Assembly (NCBI RefSeq): GCF_029626105.1
Contig: NZ_JARUBH010000009.1
Span: forward strand, 3,844,001 to 3,908,000
DNA: 64,000 nucleotides
Source of the DNA: Solwaraspora sp. WMMD792
Lineage (GTDB): Bacteria > Actinomycetota > Actinomycetes > Mycobacteriales > Micromonosporaceae
Direction of reading: 5' to 3'
Positions 6,360 through 25,235 of this stretch are shown here, piece after piece. Each line of letters starts with the position of its first letter. The stretch's first letter is position 1. The notes beneath the pieces are model-generated. The model was not told the origin of the DNA. It was given only the letters and a program-made list of their open reading frames with translations, and did no database searches. The position numbers were made by a program, and so were the translations under genes.

Positions 6360-6370
6360 GCTATGGGCTC

Positions 6371-7960: not shown

Positions 7961-8027
7961 ACCCGGACCGCCGCCGACCCCGGGTCGGGGGCGGGCGGAG
8001 GTCGATCTGCCGTCCCGGTGGGCCGGC

Positions 8028-8057
8028 CCGGCCCACCGCCGTTCGCCGGTGGGCCGG
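8028..8057 (-). terminator. Hairpin between the glycosyltransferase and polymerase genes
   Basis: Arms CCGGCCCACCG (8028-8038) and CGGTGGGCCGG (8047-8057) form a perfect 11-bp stem 58 bases past the glycosyltransferase stop. It could end the long upstream transcript or attenuate it before the exopolysaccharide genes. Confidence 0.5.
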
Positions 8058-8114
8058 CCTAATCTAGCTGGATCCTCGACGAGGCAGTATGGGCCGACAC
8101 GCCGGGGCCGGCCA

Positions 8115-9392: not shown

Positions 9393-10508
9393 TCAGCTCT
9401 GCCGCTCGGCCACCGATTCAGCCAGGGCGGTCAATTCCGTGCGCGTCTCGGGGGTCAACGACGCATCGACGAGAATGGTCACCGCTTCCTGGGTACGAAT
9501 CCGGATCATCTGCTCGATCGCCTCGAGAGCTCCCGTGTCGACGATGATGCCGCGCAGCTCGTCGGCCCCGGTCGGGTCCAGCTCCGGATTGCCGAACAGC
9601 TCTCGCAACCGGGCTGCCTGGCTGCGGTCCGCCAGGTTGCGGGCCTGCGCCATCATCACCGTCGACTTGCCCTCTCGCAGATCGTCGAGCACCGACTTGC
9701 CGGTGACCGCCGGGTCGCCGAACACTCCGAGTACGTCGTCCCGGAGCTGGAACGCGTCACCCAGTGGATCACCGAAGGCAGCGTACGCGTCCAGCAGTTC
9801 GGGCCCGGCCCCGGCAAGGGCCGCACCGATCTGCAATGGTCGGGTAACTGTGTATCTAGCGGCTTTCATCCGGATTACCGTCAACGCACTGGCCACCGAA
9901 CCGTCGCCGACGCCGGACACCAGGTCCAGGTACTGCCCGGCGATCACCTCGGTACGCATCCCGGCGAAGACCGCGTAGCCGCGCCGGATCTGCGCGGCGT
10001 CGAGCCCGCACTCGTGGAACATCTGGTCCGCCCAGGCGGCGCAGAGGTCCCCGCAGAGCAGCGCCGCGTTGCGCCCGTACCGGCCGGAGTCGCCCCGCCA
10101 GGACGAGCGGGTGTGCAGGTCGGCGAAGATCCGGTGCACCGACGGCTCGCCCCGGCGACGGTCGCTTCCGTCCATGATGTCGTCGTGGATCAGCGCGAAC
10201 GCGTGGAAGATCTCCAGCGCGGCGGCGGCCGCGACGATCTCCCGGCAGTCCGCTCCCCCGGCACCGCGCCACCCCCAGTAGCAGAAGACCGGACGCAGCC
10301 GCTTGCCGCCGACCAGGACGAACCGGCGCAGTGTGTCGTACACCCCGCGCGGTGCCCCGTCCGGCCAGTGCGGATCCTGCCGGTCGAGGAACGCCGTCAG
10401 TTCGGCGTCGCACCGCTCGCGCAGCGACCAGCCCACCGCACCGGCACCGGCACCGGCCGGGGCGTCCGGACCCGGGCTGTCGCCGGGGCGGGCCGGCGCC
10501 ACGGTCAC
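9393..10508 (-). CDS. Polyprenyl diphosphate synthase
   Basis: A 371-residue trans-prenyltransferase. GGKRLRP is at about 67-73, the first aspartate-rich motif DDIMD at 109-113 and the second, DDVLG, at 257-261. It condenses IPP onto an allylic diphosphate; the chain length cannot be read confidently. The GTG start overlaps the upstream phosphodiesterase stop by four bases, placing it in the ebo-type operon with a UbiA-family prenyltransferase, for which it may supply the prenyl donor. The proline/alanine-rich first 25 residues are probably disordered. Confidence 0.88.
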   Translation of the reverse strand: MTVAPARPGDSPGPDAPAGAGAGAVGWSLRERCDAELTAFLDRQDPHWPDGAPRGVYDTLRRFVLVGGKRLRPVFCYWGWRGAGGADCREIVAAAAALEIFHAFALIHDDIMDGSDRRRGEPSVHRIFADLHTRSSWRGDSGRYGRNAALLCGDLCAAWADQMFHECGLDAAQIRRGYAVFAGMRTEVIAGQYLDLVSGVGDGSVASALTVIRMKAARYTVTRPLQIGAALAGAGPELLDAYAAFGDPLGDAFQLRDDVLGVFGDPAVTGKSVLDDLREGKSTVMMAQARNLADRSQAARLRELFGNPELDPTGADELRGIIVDTGALEAIEQMIRIRTQEAVTILVDASLTPETRTELTALAESVAERQS

Positions 10509-11932
10509 CGGGACACCTCAGGCGACGGCGCCTGAGCCGGTGCCGGTGCATCGGCGTCGAGCCCGGCCAATTCCAGCAGCAGCGACTTGACCTCGGTGGC
10601 GGCGAACCGGTCCCGGGCCGGCGCCGGGTCCGAGCAGAGCAGCACCGGACCGTCGGCGGGGTCGTCCGGCAGCCGGCCGTGCGATCCGTGTACCGCCCGC
10701 GCGCCGGCGTCCAGCCCGACCACGTTCATCGTGTACCGCAGGCCGATCTTCTTGCGGGCCAGGGCGATCGCCGCGCGTGCCTTGGCGGCACCCGGGTTGG
10801 TCGGGTCGAACAGCAGCTCCGCCGGGTCGTAGCCGGGCTTGCGGTGAATCTCCACCAACCGGGCGAAGTCCGGCGCGGCGGTGTCGTCGCGCCAGTAGTA
10901 GTAGGTGAACCAGGCCTGCGGCTGCGCCACCAGCACCAGCTCACCGGAGCGCGGATGGTCCAGGCCGGCGGCCGCCTTGCCGTCGGCGTCGAGGACCTGC
11001 GCCACCCCGGGCAGGCCGGCGCAGAGCTTGGCCACCGTCGCGACGTCGGCCGGATCCCGGACGTACACGTGGGCGATCTGGTGATCGGCGACGGCGAACG
11101 CCCGCGACGTCCACGGATCCAGGTACTCCATCCCGGCCTGGGTGTAGACCCGCAGCAGCCCTTCGGCGCGCAGCAGCCGGTTGACGTGCACCGGCTGCGA
11201 CACGTCGGTGATGCCGTACTCGGACAGCGCCACCACGGTCGCGCCGCGCGCCGCCGCCGCGTCCAGCAGCGGAGCCAGCACCGCGTCGAGTTCGGCCGCC
11301 GCCCGCTGCGCGTGCGGGCCGGCGCCACCGTAGCGTTGCAGGTCGTAGTCGAGATGCGGCAGGTACGCCAGGGTCAGATCCGGCGAATGGTCGGCCATGA
11401 TCTGCCGGGTCGCCTTCGCGATCCACTCCGACGACACCAGCCCGGCACCCGGCCCCCAGTAGTTGAACAGCGGGAACGTGCCGAGCCGACCAGTCAGCTC
11501 GTCGTGCAGCTGCGGCGGATCGGTGTAGCAGTCCGGGTCCTTGCGCCCGTCGGCGTGGTAGATCGGCCGGGGGGTGACCGTCCAGTTGACGTCCGCACCC
11601 ATCGCGTACCACCAGCAGATGTTCGCCACCGTGTAGTCGGGGCGGACCCGGCGCGCGGCCTGCCACAGTTTCTCCCCGCCGACCAGGGCGTTGTGCTGCC
11701 GCCAGAGGAACACCTCGCCGAGGTCGCGGAAGTACCAGCCGTTACCGACGATGCCGTGGCCGGACGGCGGCTCACCGGTCAGGAAGGTGGACTGCACCGA
11801 GCAGGTGACCGCCGGCAGCACGGTGCCGAGTTCGGCCTGGAAGCCGGTGTCGGCGACCGCCGCCAGCCGGGGCATGTGGCGCAGCAGCCGGGGGGTCAGG
11901 CCGACCACGTCGAGCACCAGCAACGGGTTCAT
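10505..11932 (-). CDS. eboF: Nucleotide pyrophosphatase/alkaline-phosphatase-type protein, EboF-like
   Basis: A 475-residue protein of the type I phosphodiesterase/nucleotide pyrophosphatase family. The N-terminus MNPLLVLDVVGLTPRLL carries the first metal-binding aspartate, and the nucleophile region is TVLPAVTCSVQSTFLTGEPPS, with a threonine in the usual place. Further metal ligands lie in LPHLDYDLQ and near the DHQIAHVYV segment. No signal peptide is seen. EboF of other ebo clusters is in this family, and this gene directly follows eboE with an ATGA overlap. Assignment to EboF rests on family plus context. Confidence 0.75.
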   Translation of the reverse strand: MNPLLVLDVVGLTPRLLRHMPRLAAVADTGFQAELGTVLPAVTCSVQSTFLTGEPPSGHGIVGNGWYFRDLGEVFLWRQHNALVGGEKLWQAARRVRPDYTVANICWWYAMGADVNWTVTPRPIYHADGRKDPDCYTDPPQLHDELTGRLGTFPLFNYWGPGAGLVSSEWIAKATRQIMADHSPDLTLAYLPHLDYDLQRYGGAGPHAQRAAAELDAVLAPLLDAAAARGATVVALSEYGITDVSQPVHVNRLLRAEGLLRVYTQAGMEYLDPWTSRAFAVADHQIAHVYVRDPADVATVAKLCAGLPGVAQVLDADGKAAAGLDHPRSGELVLVAQPQAWFTYYYWRDDTAAPDFARLVEIHRKPGYDPAELLFDPTNPGAAKARAAIALARKKIGLRYTMNVVGLDAGARAVHGSHGRLPDDPADGPVLLCSDPAPARDRFAATEVKSLLLELAGLDADAPAPAQAPSPEVSR

Positions 11933-13113
11933 GCGGCGGCCTCCGATCCGGCGGCGGTACGGGTGGCGGTGGTACGGGTGCGGGCGCTCATGCCGAGCCC
12001 GACCAGTTCGTCGCGGGCCTGGGCCAGCTCGGCGGCGATCCCGGCGGCGAGCTGGTCGGGTCCGGTAGGACGTTGTCCGGCCGGCAGCACCCCCCAGGTG
12101 TAGGTCTCCACGTCGAAGTGGTCACAGCCGTCGCCGTCGATGATCGCGGCGAGACCGGCCCGCAGCTGCGGCATCGTCGAGGCCAGCGGCGCGACCGGCG
12201 CGGCGTGCAGCGGCACGTGGTAGTGCACCCGCCACGGGCCGGGCAGCCCGGCGTCGAGCGCGGCGTCGAGATCGTCGGTCGCCCCGGCAACCCCGGACCG
12301 GGTCTGGTGCAGGAACCGAGGTTCGACGTACCCGGCGATCGCGGACCGGTCCCGCACCGGGTCGGTGACCTCCAACGCGGCCGACACCTGGACCTTGACC
12401 ACCGGTAGCCCGGCGGACCGCAGCCGACCGACCGCGGCGACCGGCTCCTCCCAGGCACAGGCGAGATGGGCCAGGTCGACGCAGACGCCGAGCCGGTCGG
12501 TGTCCACCCGGCCCAGCTGTTCGGCGGCCTGGGCGGTGGTCTCCACGACGCAGCCCGGTTCAGGTTCGAAGCCGACCCGGATCGTCCGACCGGTGTCCCG
12601 TTCGACCTCGGCCAGGCCGACGGCCAGCCGGTCCAGCATCCGGGCGCAGGCGTCGGCCCGCTCGGCGTCCCACGGCTCCCGCCAGGCCAGCGGCAGCGTG
12701 GAGATGGAGCCGCGCTCGGCGTCGTCGGGCAGCAGGTCGGCGAGGATCCGGGCCAGCGCCAGGGTGTAGTCCAGCCGGCGCGGGTCGGCCCAGTCCGGGT
12801 GGTACACGGCGTGTTTGACCACCGGCGCCTGGAACGCCTCGTACGGGAACCCGTTGAGGGTGACCACTTCCAGGCCACGGTCGGTGAGCGCGGTGCGCAG
12901 CCGGCGACGGGCGGCCGGGTCGGCGGCGAGCGCGGCGGCGGCCGGCGCGGCCAGCCACAGACCCAGGCCGAGCGGGTCAGCGGCGAGCCGGTCGCGGACC
13001 GGCACCGCGTACGTGTCGAGCTGGCCGAGCACTCCGTCGAGGTCCTCGGCCGGGTGCACGTTGGTGCAGTAGCTGAGGTGGACGGTGCGCCGCCGCCGGT
13101 CGTGCAGGCGCAT
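11929..13113 (-). CDS. eboE: EboE, TIM-barrel metabolite-traffic protein
   Basis: A 394-residue xylose-isomerase-like TIM-barrel protein. It has features I associate with EboE: LSYCTNVHPAE at the N-terminus, TLNGFPYEAF, the KHAVYHPDW segment and SISTLPLAW. Acidic and histidine residues in FEPEPG, VDLAHLAC and HYHVPLH may bind metal. In Nostoc the ebo genes are known to be needed to move a scytonemin precursor to the periplasm; the chemistry of EboE is unknown. ATG 13113 forms TGATG with the TatD stop. The threonine/arginine-rich C-terminal tail is probably flexible. Confidence 0.85.
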   Translation of the reverse strand: MRLHDRRRRTVHLSYCTNVHPAEDLDGVLGQLDTYAVPVRDRLAADPLGLGLWLAAPAAAALAADPAARRRLRTALTDRGLEVVTLNGFPYEAFQAPVVKHAVYHPDWADPRRLDYTLALARILADLLPDDAERGSISTLPLAWREPWDAERADACARMLDRLAVGLAEVERDTGRTIRVGFEPEPGCVVETTAQAAEQLGRVDTDRLGVCVDLAHLACAWEEPVAAVGRLRSAGLPVVKVQVSAALEVTDPVRDRSAIAGYVEPRFLHQTRSGVAGATDDLDAALDAGLPGPWRVHYHVPLHAAPVAPLASTMPQLRAGLAAIIDGDGCDHFDVETYTWGVLPAGQRPTGPDQLAAGIAAELAQARDELVGLGMSARTRTTATRTAAGSEAAA

Positions 13114-13964
13114 CAGCCACCGCCCCGCATGATCGAGCTGCCTTCGAAGGTCGGTGCGGTGGCGGCGACGTCGCTCAGGTCGAGCCGGCCGGACTGGCCG
13201 TAGAACTCCACCGGGTTGCGCCACAGCACCCGGTCGACGTCGTCGGCGCTGAATCCGGCGGCCAGCATCGCCTCGCCGGTGGTCCGGGTCAGCAACGGAT
13301 CGGACCGGCCCCAGTCGGCGGCCGAGTTGACCAGGATCCGCTCCGGGCCGTACTGCTTGAGGATCTCCACCATCCGCGGCGGCGACATCTTGGTCTCCGG
13401 ATAGATGGAGAAGCCCATCCAGCAGCCGGACTCCTTGACCAGCCCGACCGTCACCTCGTTGAGGTGGTCGACGACGACGCGGCCGGCGTCGATGCCGGAC
13501 TCGGCGACCACCGCCAGGGTCCGTTCGGTGCCCCGGGCCTTGTCCCGGTGCGGGGTGTGCACCAGGGCCGGCAACTCGTGCGCGCGGGCCAGCGCCAGCT
13601 GGGCGGCGAACGCCTCGTCCTCGGCCGGGGTCATCGAGTCGTAGCCGATCTCGCCGACCGCCACCACCCCGTCCTTGACCAGGTAGCGGGGCAGTACGTC
13701 GAGCACACCGGCGCAGCGGGGGTCGTTGGCCTCCTTCGGGTTCAGCGCGATCGTGGCGTGGTGCCGGATGCCGAACTGGCTGGCCCGGAACGGCTCCCAG
13801 CCGAGCAGCGAGTCGAAGTAGTCGACGAACGAGCCGACGTTGGTGCGCGGCTGGCCGAGCCAGAACGCCGGTTCGACCAGGGCCCGGACCCCGGCGTCGG
13901 CCATCGCCTGGTAGTCGTCGGTGGTCCGCGAGGTCATGTGGATGTGCGGGTCGAAGATGCGCAT
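13113..13964 (-). CDS. eboB: EboB, TatD-family metal-dependent hydrolase
   Basis: A 283-residue amidohydrolase-type protein with metal ligands in DPHIHM (residues 5-10), GEIGYDSM, LVHTPHRD and VVDHLNE, the pattern of TatD-like phosphoesterases. The C-terminus diverges from DNase TatD proteins, as expected for EboB. It begins directly after the EboA stop with no gap and ends overlapping the EboE start by one base. The substrate is unknown; the ebo context argues against a general DNase role. Confidence 0.83.
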   Translation of the reverse strand: MRIFDPHIHMTSRTTDDYQAMADAGVRALVEPAFWLGQPRTNVGSFVDYFDSLLGWEPFRASQFGIRHHATIALNPKEANDPRCAGVLDVLPRYLVKDGVVAVGEIGYDSMTPAEDEAFAAQLALARAHELPALVHTPHRDKARGTERTLAVVAESGIDAGRVVVDHLNEVTVGLVKESGCWMGFSIYPETKMSPPRMVEILKQYGPERILVNSAADWGRSDPLLTRTTGEAMLAAGFSADDVDRVLWRNPVEFYGQSGRLDLSDVAATAPTFEGSSIMRGGG

Positions 13965-14651
13965 TCACCCCTCCTGTCGGGTGGTGGTGTCCGCTGCGGC
14001 GGAGCGCAGCCGCTGCAGCAGGGCGAGCGCGTCGTCCGGCAGGGTCCGGCCGGCGGCGACCCGCTCGTCGTGCAGCCCAGCGAGCATGATCAGCAGTTCG
14101 GCGTCGGCGCGGGCGTCGAGGTCGTGCACGGCGGCCAGCGGTACGCCGGTGAAGACGCACTTGAGCACCGCCTGACGCCACGCCGGCTGGTCGAGGTGGC
14201 GGGCGTACCGGCCGAGCGCGGCGGCCAGCAGCCGGGTGTCGTTGGTCCGGATCGCGTCGTCGAGCAGCGGCACCGCCCGGTCGCCGACCGGCAGCAGCGG
14301 CAGCGCCTTGAGCACCGCCCGACGCTCCGCGGCGTCGCCGTGGTGGTAGCAGTCGGCGACCGCGGCGGCCAACTCCGCTTCGGTGGTGACGGTGGCCAGG
14401 TCGACGAGGAGCAGCACCCGGGCGGCCTCGTCGGCCGACCATCCCGGTACGGCAGCCAGCTCGGCCCGGCCGCAGCGGCGGCCCGCGCTGGCGAACAGCA
14501 TCGGCAGGCTGGCCGGGTCGGTGACGATCCGGCTCCGCGCCTGCGCGAGCCAGTCCGGATCGGGTACGCCGGACAGCGCGGCGGCGAGTCGGCCGGCGAC
14601 GTCGGCGGGGTCCTCGTGGGGGTCGTCGGCGGGCTGGGCGGGTCGGTTCAC
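13965..14651 (-). CDS. eboA: EboA-domain protein
   Basis: A 228-residue helical protein matching EboA, the marker of ebo clusters, in RRAVLKALPLLP, the following RTNDTRLLAAAL, WRQAVLKCVFTGVPL and the LHDERVAAGR segment near the C-terminus. Its biochemical role is not known; ebo genes have been linked to moving specialised metabolites or their precursors across membranes. GTG 14651 overlaps the upstream TIM-barrel stop by four bases. The aspartate- and alanine-rich N-terminus is likely disordered. Confidence 0.85.
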   Translation of the reverse strand: MNRPAQPADDPHEDPADVAGRLAAALSGVPDPDWLAQARSRIVTDPASLPMLFASAGRRCGRAELAAVPGWSADEAARVLLLVDLATVTTEAELAAAVADCYHHGDAAERRAVLKALPLLPVGDRAVPLLDDAIRTNDTRLLAAALGRYARHLDQPAWRQAVLKCVFTGVPLAAVHDLDARADAELLIMLAGLHDERVAAGRTLPDDALALLQRLRSAAADTTTRQEG

Positions 14652-15619
14652 GGCTGGCCTCCTTCAGCGACGGTGCGGGCCGAATCCGTACCGGCTGATG
14701 CCGTACCGGCCGGTCCCGTGCGGGCCTGGAGTTCGGCGGACCGAAGGAACTCGATGGACCGGGCGGCGACCGCCGGGGCGGCATGCGAATGCCGGGGCAG
14801 CTCGACGGCGACCAGGCCCCGGTAACCGGCGGCGTCGAGGGCGGCCAGCACCGGCGGGAAGTCGATCTCCCCGGTGCCGAACTCGAGGTGCTCGTGCACG
14901 CCCCGGCGCATGTCGTCGATCTGGACGTTGACCAGGTGCGCGGCCACGTCGGTCACGCACTGCGGCACCGGCACCGGCTCCAGGCAGCGGCAGTGTCCGA
15001 TGTCGAGAGTGATGCCGAACCGGTCCGGTCGGCCCAGCGCGTCGCGCAGCCGCCACCAGCCGGCGATGTCGGCCACCAGCATCCCGGGCTCGGGTTCGAA
15101 GCCGAGGGTGACGCCGGCGGCGTCGGCCGCCTCGACGACCGTCGCGCAGCCGGCGACCAGCCGGTCCCAGGCGATGGCGTCGTCGACGTCGGCCGGGCGC
15201 ACCCCGGACCAGAAGGAGACCGCCTCCGCGCCCAGGTCGGCGCCGATCGCCACCGCCCGGCGCAGGAAGTCGACCCGACGGGACGCGGTGTCGTGCAGCA
15301 GGGTCGGGGCGTGTTTGTGCCACGGGTCGAGCAGGTACCGGGCGCCGGTCTCGACCACGACCGCGAGGTCGAGGTCCCGCAACTGGTCGGCGACCCGGGC
15401 CACCTTGCCGGGCAGACCGGCGGCGTACGGGTCGAGGTGATCGTGGTCGAGGGTGAGCGCGACACCCTGGTAGCCGAGGTCGGCGAGCAGCGCCAGCGCG
15501 TCACCGAGCCGATGGTTGGCGAAGCCGTTGGTGCCGTACCCGAACCGCAGCCCGGCTGCTGCGGCCGGGCCGGACCCGCCGGTTGCCGGTTCCCGCTCGC
15601 CGGCCGGGTCGGCGTTCAT
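14648..15619 (-). CDS. Sugar phosphate isomerase/epimerase-like TIM-barrel protein
   Basis: A 323-residue AP-endonuclease-2/xylose-isomerase-fold protein. The barrel starts at about residue 24 (LRFGYGTNGFANHRL). Likely metal ligands are in FEPEPGM, LDIGHC, the VNVQIDD segment and VAVELPRHSH. It is separate from EboE and is probably a sugar or cyclitol isomerase, epimerase or lyase. It overlaps EboC and EboA by four bases each. ATG 15619 fits the overlap and gives a short disordered leader; longer frames upstream are antisense shadow. Confidence 0.82.
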   Translation of the reverse strand: MNADPAGEREPATGGSGPAAAAGLRFGYGTNGFANHRLGDALALLADLGYQGVALTLDHDHLDPYAAGLPGKVARVADQLRDLDLAVVVETGARYLLDPWHKHAPTLLHDTASRRVDFLRRAVAIGADLGAEAVSFWSGVRPADVDDAIAWDRLVAGCATVVEAADAAGVTLGFEPEPGMLVADIAGWWRLRDALGRPDRFGITLDIGHCRCLEPVPVPQCVTDVAAHLVNVQIDDMRRGVHEHLEFGTGEIDFPPVLAALDAAGYRGLVAVELPRHSHAAPAVAARSIEFLRSAELQARTGPAGTASAGTDSARTVAEGGQP

Positions 15620-16587
15620 GTCGGGGACACCTTGCGGGCCAGCCGCCGACCGATCGGCGCGGCGGCGGAGACGGCGAGCCCGACGGCGGTGGCCAGGCCG
15701 GTGCCGGTCGCCGCCGCCCGGGCGGTGAGCGCGCCCTGCAGGGCGGGCAGACCGACGATGCCGGCGCCGACCGCCGCGCGTACCTGCTCGGGCCGGGGGT
15801 CGCGGGCGACCGCGGTCTGCGCGGCACCGTATCGGGCGGCGTACCAGCCGGCGAGTCCGGCGGTGACCCCGGCCCGCCACCAGCGGGCGGAGGTGGCCTG
15901 GCGGGTCGTCGTGGCACGGACCGCCGTAGCCCGGCCGGTCGGCGTCGCCGCGCGGACCGACATGGCCCGGCCGGCCGCCGGCGCGACGCTGGCCAGTGCG
16001 ATGGCGGCGGTCCCGGCCAAGGTGGCCGCCGGCAGCCGGGGATCGGCGCCGCTGACCTCGCTGCGGGACAGTTCGGTCACGGTGTAGGTGTGCGCGGCGA
16101 CGGCCAGCGCGGCAGGCAGCGCGGCCCGGGTCCGGCCGGTGCCGGCCGAGCCGAGCAGGACGTCGAGCCCTCGGCAGGCGGCCATCACCGCCGGGCCGGC
16201 CGGGGTGTTCTTGGCCCACAGGTCGTACGCCCAGATGGCGGCGGTCAGCGGCACGCCGACGGCGAGCGCCCGGCGGCCGCCGGTCACGGCGGTGAGCGCC
16301 AGGCCGGCGGTGGTCAGCCCGGCGGCGACAGCGAGCGCGGCACCGGGGGTGACCCGGCCGGACGGGATGGGTCGCTGTGGCCGCTCGACCGCGTCGAGCT
16401 CCCGGTCGGCCCAGTCGTTGGCGGCCATCCCGGCCCAGTAGAGGCAGACCGACGCGCCGGCCAGTCCGGCGGTACGCGGGCCGAGCCCGCCGGCGGCAGC
16501 CGCCCCGGCGACCACGTCACCTGGTACGGACAGCGCTGCCGGTGCCCGGACCAGCTCGGCCAGGTCCGACAGCCGTGGCGGTGTCAT
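15616..16587 (-). CDS. eboC: EboC, UbiA-family membrane prenyltransferase
   Basis: A 323-residue membrane protein with about eight helices. The first aspartate-rich motif of UbiA enzymes is at 57-65 (NDWADRELD), followed by RPQRPIPSGR. The second conserved loop is YDLWAKNTPAGP with RGLDVLLG. UbiA enzymes attach a prenyl chain to an acceptor in the membrane. In this operon the prenyl donor may come from the co-encoded polyprenyl synthase and the acceptor may be a cyclitol; both are inferences. ATGA overlaps on both sides show tight coupling. Confidence 0.83.
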   Translation of the reverse strand: MTPPRLSDLAELVRAPAALSVPGDVVAGAAAAGGLGPRTAGLAGASVCLYWAGMAANDWADRELDAVERPQRPIPSGRVTPGAALAVAAGLTTAGLALTAVTGGRRALAVGVPLTAAIWAYDLWAKNTPAGPAVMAACRGLDVLLGSAGTGRTRAALPAALAVAAHTYTVTELSRSEVSGADPRLPAATLAGTAAIALASVAPAAGRAMSVRAATPTGRATAVRATTTRQATSARWWRAGVTAGLAGWYAARYGAAQTAVARDPRPEQVRAAVGAGIVGLPALQGALTARAAATGTGLATAVGLAVSAAAPIGRRLARKVSPT

Positions 16588-17756
16588 GCGGCACCGCCCG
16601 GCTCGGCCGTCTGACCGTGCAGGTACCCGGCGAACTCGACCAGGGCGCGCCACTGGTCGCCGAGGGCGTGCGGGCCCGACCCGATCGGGTCCTTGAAGAA
16701 GAACGCCAGTTCCGGCAGCGGCCCGGAGCGACCGGCGCGGGCGGCGGCGGCGGTCAGTCGGGCCAGGTCCAGCACCAACGGGGCGGCCAGTGCCGAGTCG
16801 CACCCGTGCCAGGTGAACTCCATCCGCATCCCGGTGCCGAGGAAGCCGGAGAAGGTGATCAGATCCCAGGCGGTCTTGAAGTCGCCGATGTCGTCGACGT
16901 ACTCGATCCGGGTGTGTCCCTGCGGCTGGTAACCGAGGATCTCACCGAGCACCCGCTGTTTGCTGGCCGCCTTGGCCGCGTTGGCCGCCGGCTCGGCCAG
17001 GTTGGCCCCGTCGCCGCCACCCAGCAGGTTGCTGCCGGACCAGCTGCGGACCCGCAGGTTACGCAGCGCGAACATGGGGGCCAGCACCGCTTTCACCAGC
17101 GTCTCGCCGGTCTTGCCGTCGTGCCCCGCGTACGGTGCCCCCCGCTGCCGGGCGAGCTCGTCGAGGGCCGGCAACCGGGCCCCCACCGACGGGGTGAAAT
17201 CGACGTAGCCGCAGCCGGCGCCGAGCGCGGCGTACGCCACCAACGCGCTCGGCGGCAGCACCGGCGCGCCGCTGGGCGCCTCGGTGAGCGCGGCTGCGAG
17301 CGCGGCGAGGTCGTCGTGTGCCGGATGCGGCGGCGGCGCCGGTTCAGTGGTCGAGACGTTGACCACCACCACCTGGTCGAGGTCGTGCCGGCGGCGGAAA
17401 GCGACCAGGTCCGCCGCGATCGCCGCCGCGGTCTCGGCCTGGGTGGCCCCGGCCGGCAGCGGACGCAACTGCGGTTCCAGGCCGGCCAGCTCGGTGTGCA
17501 GCGCGGCGACCAGCCGCCCCGGGACCACACCGGCGCTGGCCAACGCGTCGGCCTTCTTCACCAGGGGCGTCGCGGCGATGTCGTGTCCGCCGAAAACGAG
17601 ATCGGCGAAGCTGGGCAGGGCCGGGCCGCGCAGCGGCGGTAGTTCGGTGACGCAGCCGGTGGTGTCGGCCAGGCCGGCGCGCACGGCCAGCGCGCCGACG
17701 ATGCTGGTGACCGCGACCGAGCCACGCGCCCCGATCAGCCAGACTCCGGTACGCAT
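16584..17756 (-). CDS. Inositol-3-phosphate-synthase-like cyclase, first gene of the ebo-type operon
   Basis: A 390-residue protein related to myo-inositol-1-phosphate synthase. The Rossmann motif is GARGSVAVTS near residues 8-17; VVVVNVSTTEPA and the NLLGGGDGANL region follow. The C-terminal WHGCDSALAAPLVLDLARL resembles the MIPS active-site region. MIPS makes inositol-3-phosphate from glucose-6-phosphate with NAD. ATG 17756 has GGAGG five bases upstream; an in-frame TTG at 17768 is unlikely. It leads the operon, where many ebo clusters carry the dehydroquinate-synthase-like EboD instead. The true substrate may not be glucose-6-phosphate. Confidence 0.82.
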   Translation of the reverse strand: MRTGVWLIGARGSVAVTSIVGALAVRAGLADTTGCVTELPPLRGPALPSFADLVFGGHDIAATPLVKKADALASAGVVPGRLVAALHTELAGLEPQLRPLPAGATQAETAAAIAADLVAFRRRHDLDQVVVVNVSTTEPAPPPHPAHDDLAALAAALTEAPSGAPVLPPSALVAYAALGAGCGYVDFTPSVGARLPALDELARQRGAPYAGHDGKTGETLVKAVLAPMFALRNLRVRSWSGSNLLGGGDGANLAEPAANAAKAASKQRVLGEILGYQPQGHTRIEYVDDIGDFKTAWDLITFSGFLGTGMRMEFTWHGCDSALAAPLVLDLARLTAAAARAGRSGPLPELAFFFKDPIGSGPHALGDQWRALVEFAGYLHGQTAEPGGAA

Positions 17757-17768
17757 TCGTGCCTCCAA

Positions 17769-18112
17769 ACGCCCGCCGCTGGCGGTGGTCGTACTGCTGC
17801 CGGTTGTCGCCTTGCCGGTCTGGCAAGGCCCCGTCCGTCCGGGCGCGCCAGGGTGGCACCACCGTCGACGGCGCCGAGGTCGGCGTCAACGACGCCGTCG
17901 TTGGGCCCGGTCGACCGGACGGACGGGGCTGTGGCAGGCAGGGACGTTCGGCGTTCGGCCCTGCCTCCCCCGATTCGGTTGTCCCCGGCCGGGTCACCCC
18001 GGCCGTGGTCCTGCTGGTCGGTCCCGCCGGGGCGGACGGTACGCCCGCCCCGGCGGTCACCGGTTGTCGTCCGTGGGCCGGTGGCCGGCCGGCCACCGGC
18101 CCACGGACCGGG
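17769..18112 (-). terminator. Structured 344-base gap with three large hairpins
   Basis: From the ThuA gene leftwards: a perfect palindrome at 18069-18108 (20-base arms), starting five bases past the stop codon and clearly a terminator; a second hairpin at 18024-18056 with 12-base arms (CCGCCGGGGCGG); and a long-range pair of 15-base arms, GCCCCGTCCGTCCGG at 17828-17842 and its complement at 17915-17929, enclosing a nested CGACGGCG/CGCCGTCG stem. The promoter for the ebo-type operon should lie within or just left of this region; no clear -10/-35 is seen. Confidence 0.7.
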
Positions 18113-21100
18113 TCAGCTCGCCGGAACGAACTGCACCCAGTTGAGGTTGAACAGGTTGAACGTTGCTCCGCCTTCGACGGTTCGGAAGACCAGGTACAGC
18201 TGGTGGGTGCCGGCCGGGTGGTCGACCGCCACGTCGGTGCTGGCCCAGTCGTTGGAGCCGGTGGTGGCGGTCAGCGTGGTGCTGGCCACCAGCGGTCCGT
18301 CCGGCGCGTCGACCCGCAGCTCCACGGCGGCCCGCGGGGTGCCCGCGGTCGACGAGGAGCCACCGGCGTGGCGCAGTGTCACCGTGTCGATCCCGCCGAG
18401 GTTGATCGGGTCGAACGCGATGTAGTCGCCCTCGTTGATGCCGGAGACGTGCTGGCCGCCGCCGGTGTCCGAGGTGTTGGAGATCGACACGCCCTGCTGG
18501 ATCGGGGCGAACTCGGCCTGCTGCTGGTAGAGCTGGATGGTGGCCTGGCCGATCGTGGTCAGCGCCGGCTGGCCGCCGCCGCCCAGGTCGGTGTAGCTGG
18601 CGCTGATCCCGCCGAACAGGTAGCTGCCGGCGTGGTCGGCCCCGTCGGCCGGGGTCGGCAGGTTACCGGTGCACCCGGTGGTGGTGGTCTGCGGATGGCC
18701 GTGCTCGTCGTGGCCGAGCACGAAGCTGACCTCTACCCGCTCACAGTCGATGGCGCCGTCCTCGGGGTCGGTGACGGTGACGGTGTACGGCACCGAGTCG
18801 CCCCAGTTGAAGAAGGAACCGGACAGCGGGGCGGTGACCTCCACCGTCGGTGCGGTGTTGCCGACCGTGATGGTCCGACTCAACGTCGCCTGCTTGCCGT
18901 TGGAGTCGGTCACCGTCAGCTGGGCGTAGTAGACGCCGTTGCTGGTGTAGGTGTACGACGGGTTGGCCTCGGTGGAGTCGGTTGTGCCGTCCCCGTCGAA
19001 GTCCCAGGCGATGTCGATGCTGGCGCCCGGCTCCGGGGTGTTGGTGCCCTCGCTGGAGAACTGCACGGTCAGCGGGGCCTGGCCGGAGGTGGGCGACGCG
19101 TCGAGTTCGGCGACCGGTCCACGGGTGCCCTTGACGTACCGGATCTGGTAAAGCGACGCGTCCGGGTTTGGCCGGAAGAAGCCGTCACCGTAGTCCAGCA
19201 CGTAGAGGGTGCCGTCCGGGCCGATCTCCATGTCCATCGGGTTGTCGAAGGTGAAGGTGGACAGGAACCGCTCGACGCCGAACAGCTTGCCGCTGCCGTT
19301 GGTCCGCATGGTGAACATCCGGTCCCGGCTGAACTCACCGAAGAAGACGGCGTCGTGGAAGTACTGCGGCAGCTTGTAGTCCGACTCCAGCGACTCGTCG
19401 AACTTGTAGATCGGCCCGCCCATCGGGCCGACGCCACCGGTGCCGACGACCGGCCACTGGAAGTCGCAGGTGCCGGCCGGGTCGACCAGGTAGCTGTCCC
19501 GGCAGGTGGTGGTGGCGTTGAACGTGTACCAGAACTGCGGCTGCTCGACCGGCGGCAACAGGCTGCGACCGGTGTTGCGGGGCGAGTCGTTGATCGGCGC
19601 CGCGCAGTTGAACGGCTCACCCGAGGTCTGCGTCTCGAAGTCGTAGTCGATGTACGGCAGGGTCGGCGAGTAGCAGTACGGCCAGCCGTAGTTGCCGGCC
19701 CGCTTGGCGGCGAACCACCGTCCGGTGCCCTCCGGCCCGCGGGTCGCGCTCGGGTTGCGCGAGTCCGGCGAGTAGTCGCCGATGTAGACCCAGCCGCGCT
19801 CGTCGACGTCGAACCGGAAGGGGTTACGCAGACCCATCAGGAAGATCTCCGGGCGGGTCTGGTCGTCGAGGTCCTGCGACTCGGGGAACAGGTTGCCGGC
19901 CGGGATGGCGTAGCTGCCGTCCGGCTTGACCCGGATGCGCAGCACCTTGCCGCGCAGGTCGTTGGTGTTGGCCGAGGAACGGGCGGCGTCGTAGGCCGGG
20001 CCACGGGTCAGCGAGCGGTTGATCGGCGTGTAACCGTCCGAGCCGCTGGCGTTGGTGTCGTCGCCGGTGACCAGGTAGAGCAGGCCCTTGCCGTCGAACT
20101 TGACTTCACCGGCGACGTGGCAGCAGGCACCCCGGTCGGTGCCGACCTTGAGGATCTCCTGCTCGGTCGACAGGTCCAGGTGCGGGGTCGGCTCCTCGAC
20201 GAACTTGACCCGGGACAGCAGGTTATAGCCCTTGAACGCCTCCCAGACGCTGGGGTCCTCGCTGTTGGCCGGCGCGTCGCCCTCGTTGACGCCCGGGGTG
20301 GCCGGGTCGTCGACCGGGGTGTCCAGCGGCGGCGCGTAGTAGAGGTAGACCCACTTGTTCTCGGCGAAGTTAGGGTCGAGGGTGACCGACTGCAGGCCGT
20401 CCTCGTCGTGCTGGTAGACGTCGATGTTGCTGATGACCGGGCTGGCGCCGCTGGCCGGGTCGTAGAGCCGGACCTCTCCGCTGCGGGTGTTGTGCAGCAC
20501 CCGGCCGTCGGGCAGCACGGCGAGGCTCATCGGTTCACCGGGCTGGTCGTTGAGGACCACCCGCTCGTAGTTGGACTCGACGGTCGCGCCGCAGTCGCCC
20601 TCGGCGACGCCGGCGGCCCACTGGATGCCGCCGAGCAGGTGCTTGCGGAACGCGCCGATGGTGAACGTCTCCGGGGCGGAGCCGAGACCGGTGTACCAGG
20701 AGCGGCCGCCCTGGTAGTCCTGGCACCAGGAGACCGGGTGGTCGTAGCCCATGCTGCTGTCGCTGACCGTGTCGGTGTCGACGGTGGCCAGCACGTGCTG
20801 GATGCCGCGGACGTTCTCCGCGAAGTTGAGGTAGTTCTCGTCGATGGTCAGCTGGCGGGGGACGGTGCTGGTCGACGGGTGGTAGCGGTCCGCGACGTCG
20901 ATCACGCCCGCGCCGCTGGCGGTGGTGCCGGTCGAGGTGGTGCCGACCAGGTCACGGTAGAACGCCCAGTCCGGTTCGGCGTCGACGGCGGCGTGCACGC
21001 CGATGTACCCGTTGCCGGCCTTGACGTAGTTCTCGAACGCCTCCTGCTGCGCGTCGTCGAGCACGTCGCCGTTGTTGTTCAGGAAGACCACGGCGGCGTA

Positions 21101-21367
21101 GTTCGCCAGGTTCTCCTCGGTGAACACGGTTCCGTTGCGGGACACGTCGACGGTGAACCCGTTGTTCCTGCCGAGGCTGCGGACCGCGTTGACACCCTTG
21201 GCGGTCGAGGGGTGGGCTACTCCCTCGGTGCTGGTGAAGACCAGCACCTGGTAGTTCTCGTCGTGTTCGTGGCCATCGTGGGCGACCGCTGGCGCGGTGG
21301 TGATCATGGGTGCGGCGAGTGCCGCGCCCGCGGCGACGGCAAGCCATCGCCGGGCGGATCTGCTCAT
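18113..21367 (-). CDS. Secreted ThuA / sugar dehydrogenase / PKD / CBM6 protein
   Basis: A 1084-residue secreted multidomain protein. It has a signal peptide (1-29, cut near APAVA/HD), a ThuA-like domain (about 37-255, VLVFTSTEGVAHPS onward), a glucose/sorbosone-dehydrogenase-type beta-propeller (about 283-735), a PKD domain (about 740-825) and a C-terminal CBM6-type carbohydrate-binding domain (about 930-1083). It probably oxidises or processes a bound saccharide outside the cell. The ATG start is preceded by CGGAGGAACG. It lies in a sugar-uptake block; the substrate is unknown. A very long antisense frame covers the gene but is a codon-bias shadow. Confidence 0.88.
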   Translation of the reverse strand: MSRSARRWLAVAAGAALAAPMITTAPAVAHDGHEHDENYQVLVFTSTEGVAHPSTAKGVNAVRSLGRNNGFTVDVSRNGTVFTEENLANYAAVVFLNNNGDVLDDAQQEAFENYVKAGNGYIGVHAAVDAEPDWAFYRDLVGTTSTGTTASGAGVIDVADRYHPSTSTVPRQLTIDENYLNFAENVRGIQHVLATVDTDTVSDSSMGYDHPVSWCQDYQGGRSWYTGLGSAPETFTIGAFRKHLLGGIQWAAGVAEGDCGATVESNYERVVLNDQPGEPMSLAVLPDGRVLHNTRSGEVRLYDPASGASPVISNIDVYQHDEDGLQSVTLDPNFAENKWVYLYYAPPLDTPVDDPATPGVNEGDAPANSEDPSVWEAFKGYNLLSRVKFVEEPTPHLDLSTEQEILKVGTDRGACCHVAGEVKFDGKGLLYLVTGDDTNASGSDGYTPINRSLTRGPAYDAARSSANTNDLRGKVLRIRVKPDGSYAIPAGNLFPESQDLDDQTRPEIFLMGLRNPFRFDVDERGWVYIGDYSPDSRNPSATRGPEGTGRWFAAKRAGNYGWPYCYSPTLPYIDYDFETQTSGEPFNCAAPINDSPRNTGRSLLPPVEQPQFWYTFNATTTCRDSYLVDPAGTCDFQWPVVGTGGVGPMGGPIYKFDESLESDYKLPQYFHDAVFFGEFSRDRMFTMRTNGSGKLFGVERFLSTFTFDNPMDMEIGPDGTLYVLDYGDGFFRPNPDASLYQIRYVKGTRGPVAELDASPTSGQAPLTVQFSSEGTNTPEPGASIDIAWDFDGDGTTDSTEANPSYTYTSNGVYYAQLTVTDSNGKQATLSRTITVGNTAPTVEVTAPLSGSFFNWGDSVPYTVTVTDPEDGAIDCERVEVSFVLGHDEHGHPQTTTTGCTGNLPTPADGADHAGSYLFGGISASYTDLGGGGQPALTTIGQATIQLYQQQAEFAPIQQGVSISNTSDTGGGQHVSGINEGDYIAFDPINLGGIDTVTLRHAGGSSSTAGTPRAAVELRVDAPDGPLVASTTLTATTGSNDWASTDVAVDHPAGTHQLYLVFRTVEGGATFNLFNLNWVQFVPAS

Positions 21368-21661: not shown

Positions 21662-22882
21662 TCAGGCCGGTGCCGTGGGCTTCGCCGAGTCCACGGTGAC
21701 CCATTCGCCGAGCTCGGCCGACTGCTCCACCGCGGCCAGCGCCTGCTGGACCTGGAGGGCGTCGTCGAAGGACGGTGTCGGGTCGTCTCCGGCCGCCAGC
21801 GCCGCGACGAAGTCACGTGCCTGGTGGGTGAAGGAGTGCTCGTACCCGATGCCGTGGCCGGGCGGCCACCAGGCGGACAGGTACGGGTGCTCCGGTTCGG
21901 TCACGATGATGCGGGTGAAGCCCTGCTCGGCCGCGGGCCGGGTGGCGTCGAAGAACTCCAGCTCGTTCATCCGCTCGAAGTCGAACGCGACCGACCCGAG
22001 CGAGCCGTTGATCTCGATCCGCAACCCGTTCTTGCGTCCGGTGGCGAAGCGGGTCGCCTCGTAGTTGGCCACCGCCCCGCCGTCGAGCCGGGCCATGAAC
22101 AGCGCGGCGTCGTCGACGGTGACCTCGCCGGTGGCTGGTTCGGCGCCGTCTGCGGACCCGCCGCCGGCCGCAGCGGTCAACCCGCTGGAACCGGCCGGCA
22201 GCGGCCGCCGCTTGACGAACGTCTCGGTCAGCCCGCTCACCTGGGCGATCCGTTGGCCCGTGACGAACTGGGTGGCGTCGATGATGTGCGCACCGATGTC
22301 ACCCAGCGCCCCGGAACCCGCCTTGTCCTTTTGCAACCGCCAGACCAGTGGAAAGTCCGGATCGAGGATCCAGTCCTGCAGGTACACCGCCCGCACGTGC
22401 CGGATCGTTCCGATCCGGCCGTCGGCGACGAGTTGACGCATCAACGTCACCGCCGGCACCCGCCGGTAGTTGAACCCGCACATCGACCGGACGCCGCTGG
22501 CCCGGGCGGCCCGGGCCGCGTCGGCCATCTGCTGCGCCTCGGCCACGGTGTTGGCCAGTGGCTTTTCGCACAGCACGTGCTTGCCGGCTGCGAGTGCCGC
22601 GATGGCGATCTCGGCGTGGCTGTCACCCGGCGTACAGATGTCGACCACGTCGATGTCATCCCGAGCGATCAGCGCCCGCCAGTCGGTGGTGTGCGACTCC
22701 CAGCCGAGTCGGTCGGCGGCCTCGGCCACCTTGGACTCGTCCCGGCCGCACACTGCGGTCATCCGGACCCGCGCCGGCAGATCGTAGACCCGGTTCACGG
22801 TTCGCCAGGCCTGCGAGTGCGCGGCGCCCATGAACGCGTAGCCGACCATGCCGACCCGCAGTTCGTTGTGTTCAGCGGACAA
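21662..22882 (-). CDS. Gfo/Idh/MocA-family oxidoreductase
   Basis: A 406-residue NAD(P)-dependent sugar oxidoreductase. The Rossmann motif is VGMVGYAFMGAAHS at about 9-22, the conserved lysine is in CEKPLANT, and the C-terminal alpha/beta domain contains LGDIGAHIIDATQF, where the histidine helps catalysis. Such enzymes oxidise or reduce sugars and cyclitols, often through 3-keto intermediates. It follows the ABC binding-protein gene by 20 bases and ends the importer operon, so it probably acts on the imported sugar. Confidence 0.88.
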   Translation of the reverse strand: MSAEHNELRVGMVGYAFMGAAHSQAWRTVNRVYDLPARVRMTAVCGRDESKVAEAADRLGWESHTTDWRALIARDDIDVVDICTPGDSHAEIAIAALAAGKHVLCEKPLANTVAEAQQMADAARAARASGVRSMCGFNYRRVPAVTLMRQLVADGRIGTIRHVRAVYLQDWILDPDFPLVWRLQKDKAGSGALGDIGAHIIDATQFVTGQRIAQVSGLTETFVKRRPLPAGSSGLTAAAGGGSADGAEPATGEVTVDDAALFMARLDGGAVANYEATRFATGRKNGLRIEINGSLGSVAFDFERMNELEFFDATRPAAEQGFTRIIVTEPEHPYLSAWWPPGHGIGYEHSFTHQARDFVAALAAGDDPTPSFDDALQVQQALAAVEQSAELGEWVTVDSAKPTAPA

Positions 22883-22902: not shown

Positions 22903-23994
22903 TCAGAACCCGAGCGGCAGGTACTCGCTCGCGTTCTCCTTGGTGATGGTCTCCGAGGCCAGGATGATCTCCTTGGGCACCTGCAGCTCGACCAGATCGG
23001 ACATGCCCCGGCCCTGCGCGATCAGGCGGGCGAGCGAGATCGCCGAGGAGGCCATCGACGGGCTGTAGGTGACGGTCGCCTTCAGCACGCTGTCGTCGGC
23101 CTGGATCGCCTCCATCGCCGCCCGCGAACCGGCGCCACCGACCATGATGAACTCCGACCGGTTGGCCTGGCTGATCGCGGCCAGTACCCCGATGCCCTGG
23201 TCGTCATCGTGGTTCCAGATGGCGTCGATCTTCGGCAGGGCCTGCAGCAGGTTGGCCGCCTCGCGCTGGCCGGAGTCCGCGGTGAACTCGGCCGCCCGCC
23301 GGTTGGCGATGGTGAAGCCGTGCACCTCGAGGGCGTCCTTGAAACCGGCGGACCGCTCCTGGGTCAGCTCCAACGCGTCGATCCCGGCGATCTCGGCGAT
23401 CACCGGGTTGGCGATGCCCTTCTCCTGCATCTGGGCGGCGATGAAGTTGCCCGCCGACACGCCCATGCCGTAGTTGTCGCCCTTGATCTGGGTACGGTAG
23501 GCGAGCGCCTGGGTGAACGCCCGGTCCAGGTTGACCACCGGGATGCCGGCCTCCATGGCCTGCAGGCCGCTGGCGGTCAGCTCGGCTCCGTCGTGCGGCA
23601 GCATCACGATGACGTCCGGGCTCTGCGAGATCAGGGTGTCCAGCGCGGCCCGTTGAGCGGCGGCGTCGGCGCCCGCCTCGACGGTGAGGAACTCCACGTC
23701 CGAGTACGCCTCGGCCTGGGCCCGGGCGTTGTTGGTGATCGCCGCGAGCCAGCCGTGGTCGGCCGCCGGGGCGGAGAAGCCGATGGTGACGGTCTCACCG
23801 GGCTCGGAGTTGGGGTTGCCCTGGTTGGCGGCCTGCGTCTGGGTGTTGGTCGGGGCGGCTTCGTTGCTGGTGCACGCGCTCAGCAGTACACCGGCACCGA
23901 CTGCGGCACCACCGGCGAGCAGCCGACGGCGGGACATGTCACCGGCGGCGGCGCCGCGCGCGCCGAACAGTGTCCGACGGGAGAAAGCGGTCAT
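22903..23994 (-). CDS. Sugar ABC transporter substrate-binding lipoprotein
   Basis: A 363-residue periplasmic-binding protein of the RbsB-like family (VTIGFSAPAADHGWLAAITNNA). The N-terminus has two arginine pairs (SRRTLFG and MSRRRLLAGG) and a lipobox LLSAC with the lipidated cysteine at 41, so Tat export followed by lipidation is plausible. ATG 23994 has AGGAGG five bases upstream; a second methionine at residue 20 could also start. The mature protein begins with an asparagine/threonine-rich linker. It is encoded with its permease and ATPase. Confidence 0.88.
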   Translation of the reverse strand: MTAFSRRTLFGARGAAAGDMSRRRLLAGGAAVGAGVLLSACTSNEAAPTNTQTQAANQGNPNSEPGETVTIGFSAPAADHGWLAAITNNARAQAEAYSDVEFLTVEAGADAAAQRAALDTLISQSPDVIVMLPHDGAELTASGLQAMEAGIPVVNLDRAFTQALAYRTQIKGDNYGMGVSAGNFIAAQMQEKGIANPVIAEIAGIDALELTQERSAGFKDALEVHGFTIANRRAAEFTADSGQREAANLLQALPKIDAIWNHDDDQGIGVLAAISQANRSEFIMVGGAGSRAAMEAIQADDSVLKATVTYSPSMASSAISLARLIAQGRGMSDLVELQVPKEIILASETITKENASEYLPLGF

Positions 23995-24100: not shown

Positions 24101-25180
24101 TCAGGCGGTTCTTCGGTTGAAGAGCTGGCTGAGGGAGTTGAACCGGAACTGCTGGATGAGAACGGCCACCACGATGATCCCGCCCTTGATCATGTTCTGG
24201 GATTCGGTGGAGAGTCCGTTGATGGCGAACAGGTTGGTGATGGTGGAGAAGACCAGCACCCCGAACAGGGCGCCGATGATGGTGCCGCGACCGCCGGTGA
24301 GCAGCGTGCCGCCGATGATCGCCGCGGCGATCGCGTCAAGCTCGTACAGGTTTGCCATGGCTGCCTGGGCCGAGTTGGCCTGCGCGGTCAGCATGATCGC
24401 GCCGATGCCGCAGCACAGCCCGGACAGGCCGTAGATGAGCAGCGTGTGCCACCGGACGTTGATCCCGGCGAGTCGGGCCGCTTCGGCGTTGCCGCCGATG
24501 GCGACGGTGCGTCGGCCGAAGGTGGTGCGGTTGAGCAGCACCCAGCCGGCGGCGACCACCGCGGCGAGGATGACGACCAGCAACGGGATTCCGAGGATCC
24601 GCTGGGTGGCCATTCCGTTGATCACCGACGAGGTGGAGACCTGGGTCTGCTTGCCGGAGATGAGCGCGGCCAACCCTCGCGCGGCCACCATCATCGCCAG
24701 GGTGGCGATGAACGGCACCAGCCGGCCGTACGAGATCAGCACTCCGTTGACCAGCCCGACGCACATCCCGACCACGACGGCGGTGAAGATCATGCCGCCG
24801 GGGCCGAAACTCTGGGTCGCCACCGTGGTGGCCCATACCCCGGCCAGCGCCATGATCGCGCCGACCGACAGGTCGATGCCGCCGGCGATGATCACGAATG
24901 TCATGCCGACGGTGACCACGCCGATCGCGGAGGCCTGCTGCAAGATGGTGAAGATGTTGTTGCGGACCCAGGTCGGGTCGCTGTATAGGTCGGGCCGGGT
25001 GGCGGCACCGATGATGACCAGAATGACGAGGACGCCGACCAGCCACAGGTTGCGTCGGGCATACTCGCTGGCGTCGGAACGCCACCAGCTCTGCCGGGGT
25101 GGTTCGTCCGCGCCGTGCGCCGGCGGCGCTGCCGGCTTCTCCTTACCGGGTACGGTCGCCGTGGCCTCTTCCGCGGTCAC
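24101..25180 (-). CDS. Sugar ABC transporter permease (RbsC/XylH-type)
   Basis: A 359-residue permease with about 10 helices and the family signature GGIDLSVGAIMALAG, followed by YGRLVPFIATLAMM and GGRGTIIGALFGVL. It forms the membrane channel for the adjacent RbsA-like ATPase and RbsB-like binding protein. GTG 25180 has GGAG seven bases upstream; longer frames upstream lack sense. The first 45 residues are a charged, proline-rich cytoplasmic leader. Confidence 0.88.
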   Translation of the reverse strand: MTAEEATATVPGKEKPAAPPAHGADEPPRQSWWRSDASEYARRNLWLVGVLVILVIIGAATRPDLYSDPTWVRNNIFTILQQASAIGVVTVGMTFVIIAGGIDLSVGAIMALAGVWATTVATQSFGPGGMIFTAVVVGMCVGLVNGVLISYGRLVPFIATLAMMVAARGLAALISGKQTQVSTSSVINGMATQRILGIPLLVVILAAVVAAGWVLLNRTTFGRRTVAIGGNAEAARLAGINVRWHTLLIYGLSGLCCGIGAIMLTAQANSAQAAMANLYELDAIAAAIIGGTLLTGGRGTIIGALFGVLVFSTITNLFAINGLSTESQNMIKGGIIVVAVLIQQFRFNSLSQLFNRRTA

Positions 25181-25235
25181 AGTCCTACTCCTTCGTTTAC
25201 CGGCTGGCCGCTGGCCAACCGGTCGGGTCGCCCGG

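Follow-up and report, generated by a model that had tools for sequence, protein, structure and literature searches.

A stretch of 64,000 nucleotides from the actinomycete Solwaraspora sp. WMMD792 (contig NZ_JARUBH010000009.1, positions 3,844,001 to 3,908,000), referred to here as the window, carries an ebo operon that is headed by a cyclase of the myo-inositol phosphate synthase (MIPS) family in place of the cyclase EboD. Previously described ebo clusters come from cyanobacteria, Bacteroidota, Proteobacteria, and the plastids of eustigmatophytes (PMC5133447; PMC6282210).

Organization of the ebo operon

The operon runs on the minus strand from position 17756 to 9393 and consists of eight genes that overlap or abut with zero gaps. 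Their order is MIPS, an EboC-type UbiA prenyltransferase, a TIM barrel, EboA, EboB, EboE, EboF, and a polyprenyl synthase (Table 1). Four-base overlaps are present at the MIPS/EboC, EboC/TIM, TIM/EboA, EboE/EboF, and EboF/polyprenyl synthase junctions; EboA and EboB abut, and the EboB/EboE junction is also a four-base overlap provided that EboE starts at TTG. An earlier note on this DNA, made from the sequence alone, had described adjacent minus-strand genes that overlap or abut; open frames and coordinates agree on this, with eight genes once the polyprenyl synthase is counted. Recurrence of this order throughout the class shows that the arrangement is not due to chance. A scan of window positions 17500 to 18400 for promoters and terminators found none.

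Like the known ebo clusters (PMC5133447; PMC6282210), the operon holds EboA, EboB, an EboC-type protein, EboE, and EboF in one cluster. Compared to them, it shows several differences. First, it lacks EboD and carries a MIPS-type cyclase. Second, it includes an extra TIM barrel, which is also found in the Ketogulonicigenium cluster. Third, its EboC passes a separate NCBIfam model (the SCO3242 family). The first ebo description also reports eboD-less clusters and notes an actinobacterial EboA fused to a xylose-isomerase-like protein (PMC5133447).

The earlier note held that five genes match known Ebo families. In the profile searches that it had proposed, two operon proteins, those with the EboA domain and EboE, passed curated NCBIfam Ebo models, as the MIPS domains passed theirs, while EboB, EboC, and EboF were placed through gene order and homology with EboD-containing clusters. 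The EboA protein stays below the cut-off of a longer EboA-family NCBIfam model (75 versus 320 bits), EboB and EboF have zero matches to Ebo-named NCBIfam models, and the UbiA protein does not reach the cut-off of the NCBIfam EboC model NF035940 (116 versus 250 bits). The EboC proteins of EboD-type clusters (Azospirillum, Deinococcus, and Ketogulonicigenium) also score only 80-96 bits on this model, and thus its cut-off does not define the kind of ebo cluster.

Table 1. Genes of the ebo operon and of its upstream neighborhood, in window positions; fetched loci are the 80 eboE loci defined in the survey
Feature	Position	Strand	Evidence or occurrence
MIPS-type cyclase, operon head	16584..17756	-	Pfam PF07994 155 bits, PF01658 105 bits
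EboC-type UbiA prenyltransferase (SCO3242 family)	15616..16587	-	PF01040; NF045897 368 bits (cut-off 260)
Xylose-isomerase-like TIM barrel, ketose-3-epimerase fold	14648..15619	-	PF01261
EboA-domain protein	13965..14651	-	NF035938 155 bits (cut-off 50); no Pfam match
EboB, TatD/amidohydrolase superfamily	13113..13964	-	PF01026 44 bits (cut-off 27); also PTE
EboE, TIM barrel	11929..13116	-	NF035939 410 bits (cut-off 250); PF01261
EboF-type phosphodiesterase/phosphatase	10505..11932	-	PF01663 208 bits
Short-chain polyprenyl diphosphate synthase	9393..10508	-	PF00348 162 bits
Large protein with ThuA, glucose/sorbosone dehydrogenase (GSDH), PKD, and CBM6 domains	18113..21367	-	Pfam
Gfo/Idh/MocA oxidoreductase	21662..22882	-	Related gene in 11/80 fetched loci
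Sugar-binding lipoprotein-type ABC transporter component	22903..23994	-	Related gene in 9/80 fetched loci
ABC transporter permease	24101..25306	-	Related gene in 15/80 fetched loci
ROK-family regulator	26819..27997	-	Related gene in 10/80 fetched loci

Search for EboD in the genome and the class

The earlier note saw no EboD in the cluster and named an eboD homologue elsewhere in the genome as the finding that would count against it; the genome was searched, and none was found. Two genes matched the dehydroquinate (DHQ) synthase family. One is aroB (323 bits, cut-off 305), which lies behind a frame read as chorismate synthase. The other passes no model, scores 154 bits on the EboD-containing family, where the cut-off is 333, and comes after an aminotransferase recognized as scyllo-inosose-aminotransferase-like; we infer that it is a 2-deoxy-scyllo-inosose-synthase-like gene. 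With both genes assigned otherwise, a hidden EboD in this genome was ruled out. As a separate observation, the second gene and its aminotransferase hint at an aminocyclitol cluster elsewhere in the genome.

Across 296 actinomycete genomes, the EboD-containing family was over its cut-off in none and gave lower-scoring matches in 283. The EboD-type proteins of Azospirillum, Ketogulonicigenium, Deinococcus, Aureibacter, Gloeothece, and Mycetohabitans score 531-594 bits against the same cut-off of 333. A phylum-wide search for EboD gave 0 of 198, a result that adds little, as the E-value was strict and control genomes gave no match either.

Distribution of MIPS-type and EboD-type clusters

EboE was matched in 80 of the 296 actinomycete genomes and scored over the cut-off in 76. 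There were 79 over-cut-off eboE places, one of them the window; the other 78, together with two below the cut-off, made up 80 fetched loci. These were searched by phmmer with the window proteins and EboD-type proteins as queries, and a locus was called an ebo cluster when EboB accompanied EboE. By this definition, 73 of the 78 over-cut-off places are ebo clusters and five are lone, divergent EboE genes. MIPS was detected in 69 of the 73 clusters (in L050 at 55 bits only), EboC in 69, EboA in 70, EboF in 72, and EboD in none. In all 67 loci in which both MIPS and EboC were detected, MIPS lies upstream on the same strand, and the order that recurs in the class is MIPS-EboC-TIM-EboA-EboB-EboE-EboF. 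Four clusters lack MIPS: two stand at a contig end with less than 0.5 kb upstream, and two (L038 and L080) are real absences. A second set of loci with titles, the best 80 of 589, leans towards the window's kind; 54 of these have MIPS, 13 have no MIPS and little sequence upstream, and an EboD match was found in none.

The MIPS-type cluster is therefore the usual actinomycete form of ebo. With MIPS in 69 clusters, a restriction of the arrangement to the present genome was ruled out. This amends the earlier note: the arrangement is no special case, and MIPS-type clusters occur also in haloarchaea and on a Gemmatimonadota plasmid.

Outside Actinomycetota, the survey covered plasmid records, among which many near-identical Streptomyces plasmids also appear. 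The 51 records with EboF, counted as records and not as independent events, have MIPS in 32, EboD in 15, both in none, and neither in four, with 6.4 kb as the largest start-to-start distance counted. In one of the four (S. fungicidicus), EboF is at base 379, near the record end. The survey of EboD versus MIPS that the earlier note had proposed thus found the two cyclases together neither in the class nor on plasmids. MIPS-type haloarchaeal clusters (Natronococcus, Halocatena, and Halobaculum) comprise TatD, UbiA, two or three TIM barrels, and EboF, with EboA and EboE not annotated; Haladaptatus has the same set, with MIPS not in view. The plasmid of Gemmatirosa (Gemmatimonadota) carries a MIPS-type cluster with an EboE of 446 bits. 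A related MIPS is present in two Halomarina records, of which L200 is annotated without any ebo gene and the other is unannotated.

Several side observations were made in these surveys. The five lone EboE genes (L068, L097, L100, L108, and L110) score higher with the Azospirillum EboE than with that of the window, and no further ebo gene was detected within about 19 kb of them. EboE-like matches below the cut-off (L111, L112, and others) span profile positions 1-242 only and come from one actinomycete family; further ebo genes were looked for in the two fetched loci, L111 and L112, and none was detected. In L225, L229, and L230, a ferritin-like gene (PF12902 found in L225, so annotated in L229 and L230) lies near the EboD gene and behind a large protein with no Pfam match in L225 and L230, the two tested; of the ebo set, L229 has TatD and EboD only. 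Plasmids of Roseomonas and Hymenobacter (L198 and L199) carry a different MIPS-headed set with YcaO, Gfo/Idh/MocA, a sugar isomerase, and PIG-L.

The MIPS-type cyclase

As the earlier note had proposed, the cyclase at the head of the operon is unrelated to EboD: both its NAD-binding domain (PF07994) and its catalytic domain (PF01658) score over cut-off, which places it in the MIPS family. The closest solved structure is the Archaeoglobus fulgidus MIPS 1u1i (236 bits). Lysines 262, 266, 294, and 355 align with the four lysines that act in catalysis in archaeal MIPS and are kept in 38 of 38 alignment rows. Based on these lysines, the enzyme most likely converts glucose 6-phosphate to 1L-myo-inositol 1-phosphate. 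Compared to the archaeal enzyme, the window's enzyme differs in sitting in an ebo operon and is known here from its sequence. The synthase of a five-membered cyclitol phosphate (6k96, presumably Ari2 of aristeromycin) is likewise a member of the MIPS superfamily recruited to a secondary pathway, but its similarity to the operon enzyme is far weaker (50 versus 236 bits); the 1gr0 enzyme reaches 27 bits.

Trees were built for MIPS and EboF. In the MIPS tree, which was rooted at the midpoint and in which the bootstrap had not settled, 25 actinomycete ebo MIPS proteins form one clade (support 100/99), the haloarchaeal MIPS proteins stand beside it (88/82), and the canonical INO1 of the genome is distant. 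The position of Gemmatirosa is weakly supported (81/41).

One could suppose that this enzyme simply rides along with ebo and adds to the inositol phosphate available for phospholipids or mycothiol. Its domains and catalytic lysines, which match those of genuine MIPS enzymes, lend this view some substance. However, a second MIPS gene elsewhere in the genome is the canonical inositol synthase (651 bits, cut-off 638), and therefore the operon encodes a further MIPS that is distinct from it. The operon copy scores 24 bits on the mycothiol-type INO1 model TIGR03450, against the same cut-off of 638, and with the canonical ino1 present elsewhere, its identification as the housekeeping INO1 was ruled out. 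In addition, MIPS stands repeatedly at the operon head, to the exclusion of EboD. We regard this supply role as very improbable.

Conserved features of the other Ebo proteins

The EboC-type protein is a UbiA member by PF01040 and by its first motif, NDxxDxxxD (NDWADRELD in the window). In a 35-row alignment, this aspartate (donor) motif is kept in all 27 rows that cover it. Members of the UbiA superfamily have a second Asp-rich motif, but this is absent from EboC, which has T..S/A..E in its place (T..S..E in the window). Of the 28 rows covering this position, 27 have E and 26 have T, the exceptions being L225 (Q) and L038 and L177 (M). Seven fragmentary rows (L131, L155, L169, L191, L109, L044, and L080) cover neither motif, and L202 has a gap at the first. 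The T..S/A..E motif is common to the EboC proteins of MIPS-type, EboD-type, and haloarchaeal clusters. In EboB, H9, E105, H136, H167, and D217, presumably metal ligands, are among the invariant residues of 35 rows. The AlphaFold2 model of the TIM barrel (pLDDT 90.5), with UlaE and L-ribulose 3-epimerase as top Foldseek matches, resembles ketose 3-epimerases. For EboE (pLDDT 91.9), Foldseek gave a generic sugar-isomerase barrel, and the best solved match of its profile is IolI (E 2e-4), which we take to be inosose isomerase.

In the EboF tree, haloarchaea stand apart, and the EboD-type rows form one clade (98/93) that includes the MIPS-type Gemmatirosa, as expected if the cyclases are interchangeable. 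A single acquisition behind every MIPS-type cluster was rejected on this placement. Four rows from cyclase-less Streptomyces clusters are nested (100/100) inside the MIPS-type rows, which reads as loss of the cyclase.

These features also bear on a proposal in which a membrane-anchored Ebo complex moves diverse metabolites out of the cytoplasm, with the cyclase making just an accessory compound or being dispensable. Such traffic has been proposed for the scytonemin monomer, which is retained in the cytoplasm of Nostoc upon deletion of eboA, B, C, E, or F (PMC6282210). The variable partners of ebo (ferritin-like genes, sugar dehydrogenases, and ABC transporters) and the existence of cyclase-free clusters fit this proposal. 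However, UbiA, TatD, epimerase, and phosphodiesterase are enzyme families, the metal site of EboB is apparently complete, the donor motif of EboC is kept in all covering rows, and the cyclase is retained in 69 of 73 clusters. A traffic function is a possible but rather unlikely explanation.

Genes around the operon

Polyprenyl synthases of the window's sequence cluster came from 27 of up to 162 sources compared (loci L033-L193 and the window); in 24 sources the gene lies downstream of the ebo genes, at a median distance of three bases, and strong matches are mostly from Micromonosporaceae-type loci. Polysaccharide-type genes (flippase, O-antigen ligase, and glycosyltransferase) follow the synthase after 24 bases on the minus strand (window 3623-9368) and may share a transcript with it. 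On a Streptomyces camelliae plasmid (L193), a sigma factor, an MFS transporter, and a ScyD/ScyE-family gene precede a MIPS-type ebo operon.

Among the 80 fetched loci, 35 have a GSDH-like gene, 20 have ThuA, and two have a ScyD/ScyE-like gene. In a test on 25 genomes, eboE has a GSDH gene at most 12 kb away in 14, against an expectation of 0.58, and ThuA in 10, against 0.44. Distances were taken start to start, and split matches are part of the genome-wide match counts. These genomes, from 22 genera and with the window's own among them, were hand-chosen from the 80 with an eboE match, and the test was set up after these neighbors had been noticed in overlapping loci and is thus not independent. 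In one genome (G284), the sole GSDH is at 13 kb and was not counted.

This neighborhood could mean that the operon is part of an island of genes for taking up and oxidizing sugars, in which the ebo enzymes process an external oxidized sugar or inositol. The upstream genes for an ABC transporter, a ROK regulator, Gfo/Idh/MocA, and ThuA-GSDH, the enrichment of GSDH and ThuA, and a Haladaptatus cluster that adjoins a 3-keto-disaccharide hydrolase all point this way. Catabolism would nevertheless have little use for a prenyltransferase, a prenyl diphosphate synthase, or a cyclase of biosynthetic type, nearby GSDH is missing in 11 of the 25 genomes, and the transporter and Gfo/Idh genes recur in just 9-15 of the 80 fetched loci. 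Keto-sugar or polyol utilization is in our view quite unlikely. No paper joining sorbosone dehydrogenase with ThuA was found in the open-licence literature.

A more far-reaching idea, a long shot in our estimate, is that every kind of ebo cluster makes a prenylated redox lipid or cofactor, built on a remodeled cyclitol ring, for extracytoplasmic beta-propeller oxidoreductases; one or the other of two unrelated cyclases would supply the ring. Such a product would account for the position of ebo beside GSDH-type genes (14 of 25 genomes), a GSDH-cupredoxin protein (Natronococcus plasmid), a pyrroloquinoline quinone (PQQ)-type dehydrogenase (Salipiger plasmid), ScyD/ScyE, and the scytonemin genes, which lie beside ebo in cyanobacteria (PMC6282210). 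It would also explain why the pqqC family was found in just one of the 25 ebo genomes, one without nearby GSDH; this search gave no match in control genomes. Against it, ScyD/ScyE-like genes are near only the two fetched loci mentioned above, and no GSDH or PQQ-type dehydrogenase is annotated nearby in eight of nine EboD-type and three of four haloarchaeal plasmid loci viewed.

Proposed pathway and points against it

The cyclase exchange is best read as a single pathway in which a non-homologous enzyme has taken over the first, ring-forming step. The earlier note had suggested an exchanged first step, and the mutual exclusion of MIPS and EboD over many clusters supports it; the interpretation of that note is partly supported overall, and the cyclitol phosphate prenylated by EboC that it also suggested is a putative product. 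We consider it probable, though well short of certain, that the operon is the actinomycete form of the ebo pathway, in which MIPS replaces EboD at the ring-forming step and the product is a cyclitol-derived prenyl lipid. Also in its favor are the recurrent gene order, the single clade of actinomycete ebo MIPS proteins with their catalytic lysines, the separate canonical inositol synthase, the T..S/A..E motif common to EboC proteins of all cluster types, the position of Gemmatirosa in the EboF tree, the polyprenyl synthase behind the ebo genes in 24 sources, and the IolI match of EboE.

The reaction order, substrates, product, and role may be as follows. The MIPS-type, NAD-dependent enzyme in EboD's place would form the ring. 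Its remodeling, by metal-dependent hydrolysis, isomerization, or dehydration, may then fall to EboB, EboE, and the additional TIM barrel, assisted by EboA. EboC would couple the ring to a short prenyl chain, which in the window could come from the adjacent polyprenyl synthase, and EboF would hydrolyze a phosphate ester. The pathway would end in a prenyl lipid that is derived from a cyclitol, is bound to the membrane, and acts in an extracytoplasmic process.

Several points weigh against this pathway. First, two of the 73 clusters (L038 and L080) carry neither cyclase despite at least 3 kb upstream, and the best 80 of 589 loci include 13 cyclase-less loci with at least 3 kb upstream, all titled Streptomyces; these cyclase-free clusters weigh against a strict cyclase rule. 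Second, L061 and L148 keep MIPS-EboA-EboB-EboE, and L156 keeps MIPS-TIM-EboA-EboB-EboE, with EboC and EboF undetected alongside in all three; the L061 genome has an EboC gene on another contig. Third, MIPS yields a phosphorylated C6 ring. The ring from EboD-type enzymes is thought to be an unphosphorylated C7 ring (PMC5133447), and a common downstream gene set is thus not self-evident. The presence of EboF with both cyclases also argues that it does not serve the MIPS phosphate alone. Fourth, the EboC-type enzymes that were assayed prenylate an aromatic acid in vitro (PMC9235831).

As to the gene content of the cyclase-less Streptomyces clusters (L151, L157, L158, L038, and others), several have a desaturase-like oxidoreductase upstream (eight genes), and a gene like the inositol-monophosphatase-family gene of L038 (Pfam-checked in L038) occurs in seven loci.

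Related clusters in the literature and significance

In the open-licence literature searched, within the portions available, no description of MIPS in ebo clusters was found. Saccharomonospora clusters are shown in PMC9235831. The SCO3237-SCO3243 region of Streptomyces coelicolor, inside the calcium-dependent antibiotic (CDA) locus, can be likened to the window operon by its published annotation, not by sequence: SCO3243 is a myo-inositol phosphate synthase and SCO3242 a putative transferase (PMC3610822), and SCO3237 is a phosphodiesterase (PMC8981147). The EboC-like model of NCBI carries the name SCO3242. Nothing joining CDA, inositol, and a prenyltransferase was found in the open-licence literature.

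The proposed cyclitol origin of the ebo product has previously rested on the family to which EboD belongs. An unrelated sugar-phosphate cyclase in its place, in most actinomycete and some archaeal clusters, provides independent evidence that the entry step is ring formation from a sugar phosphate. The MIPS at the operon head also narrows the candidate first substrate to one that can be tested by a simple assay. Finally, the question becomes accessible in tractable hosts, among them Streptomyces coelicolor, whose CDA locus includes annotated members of the set.

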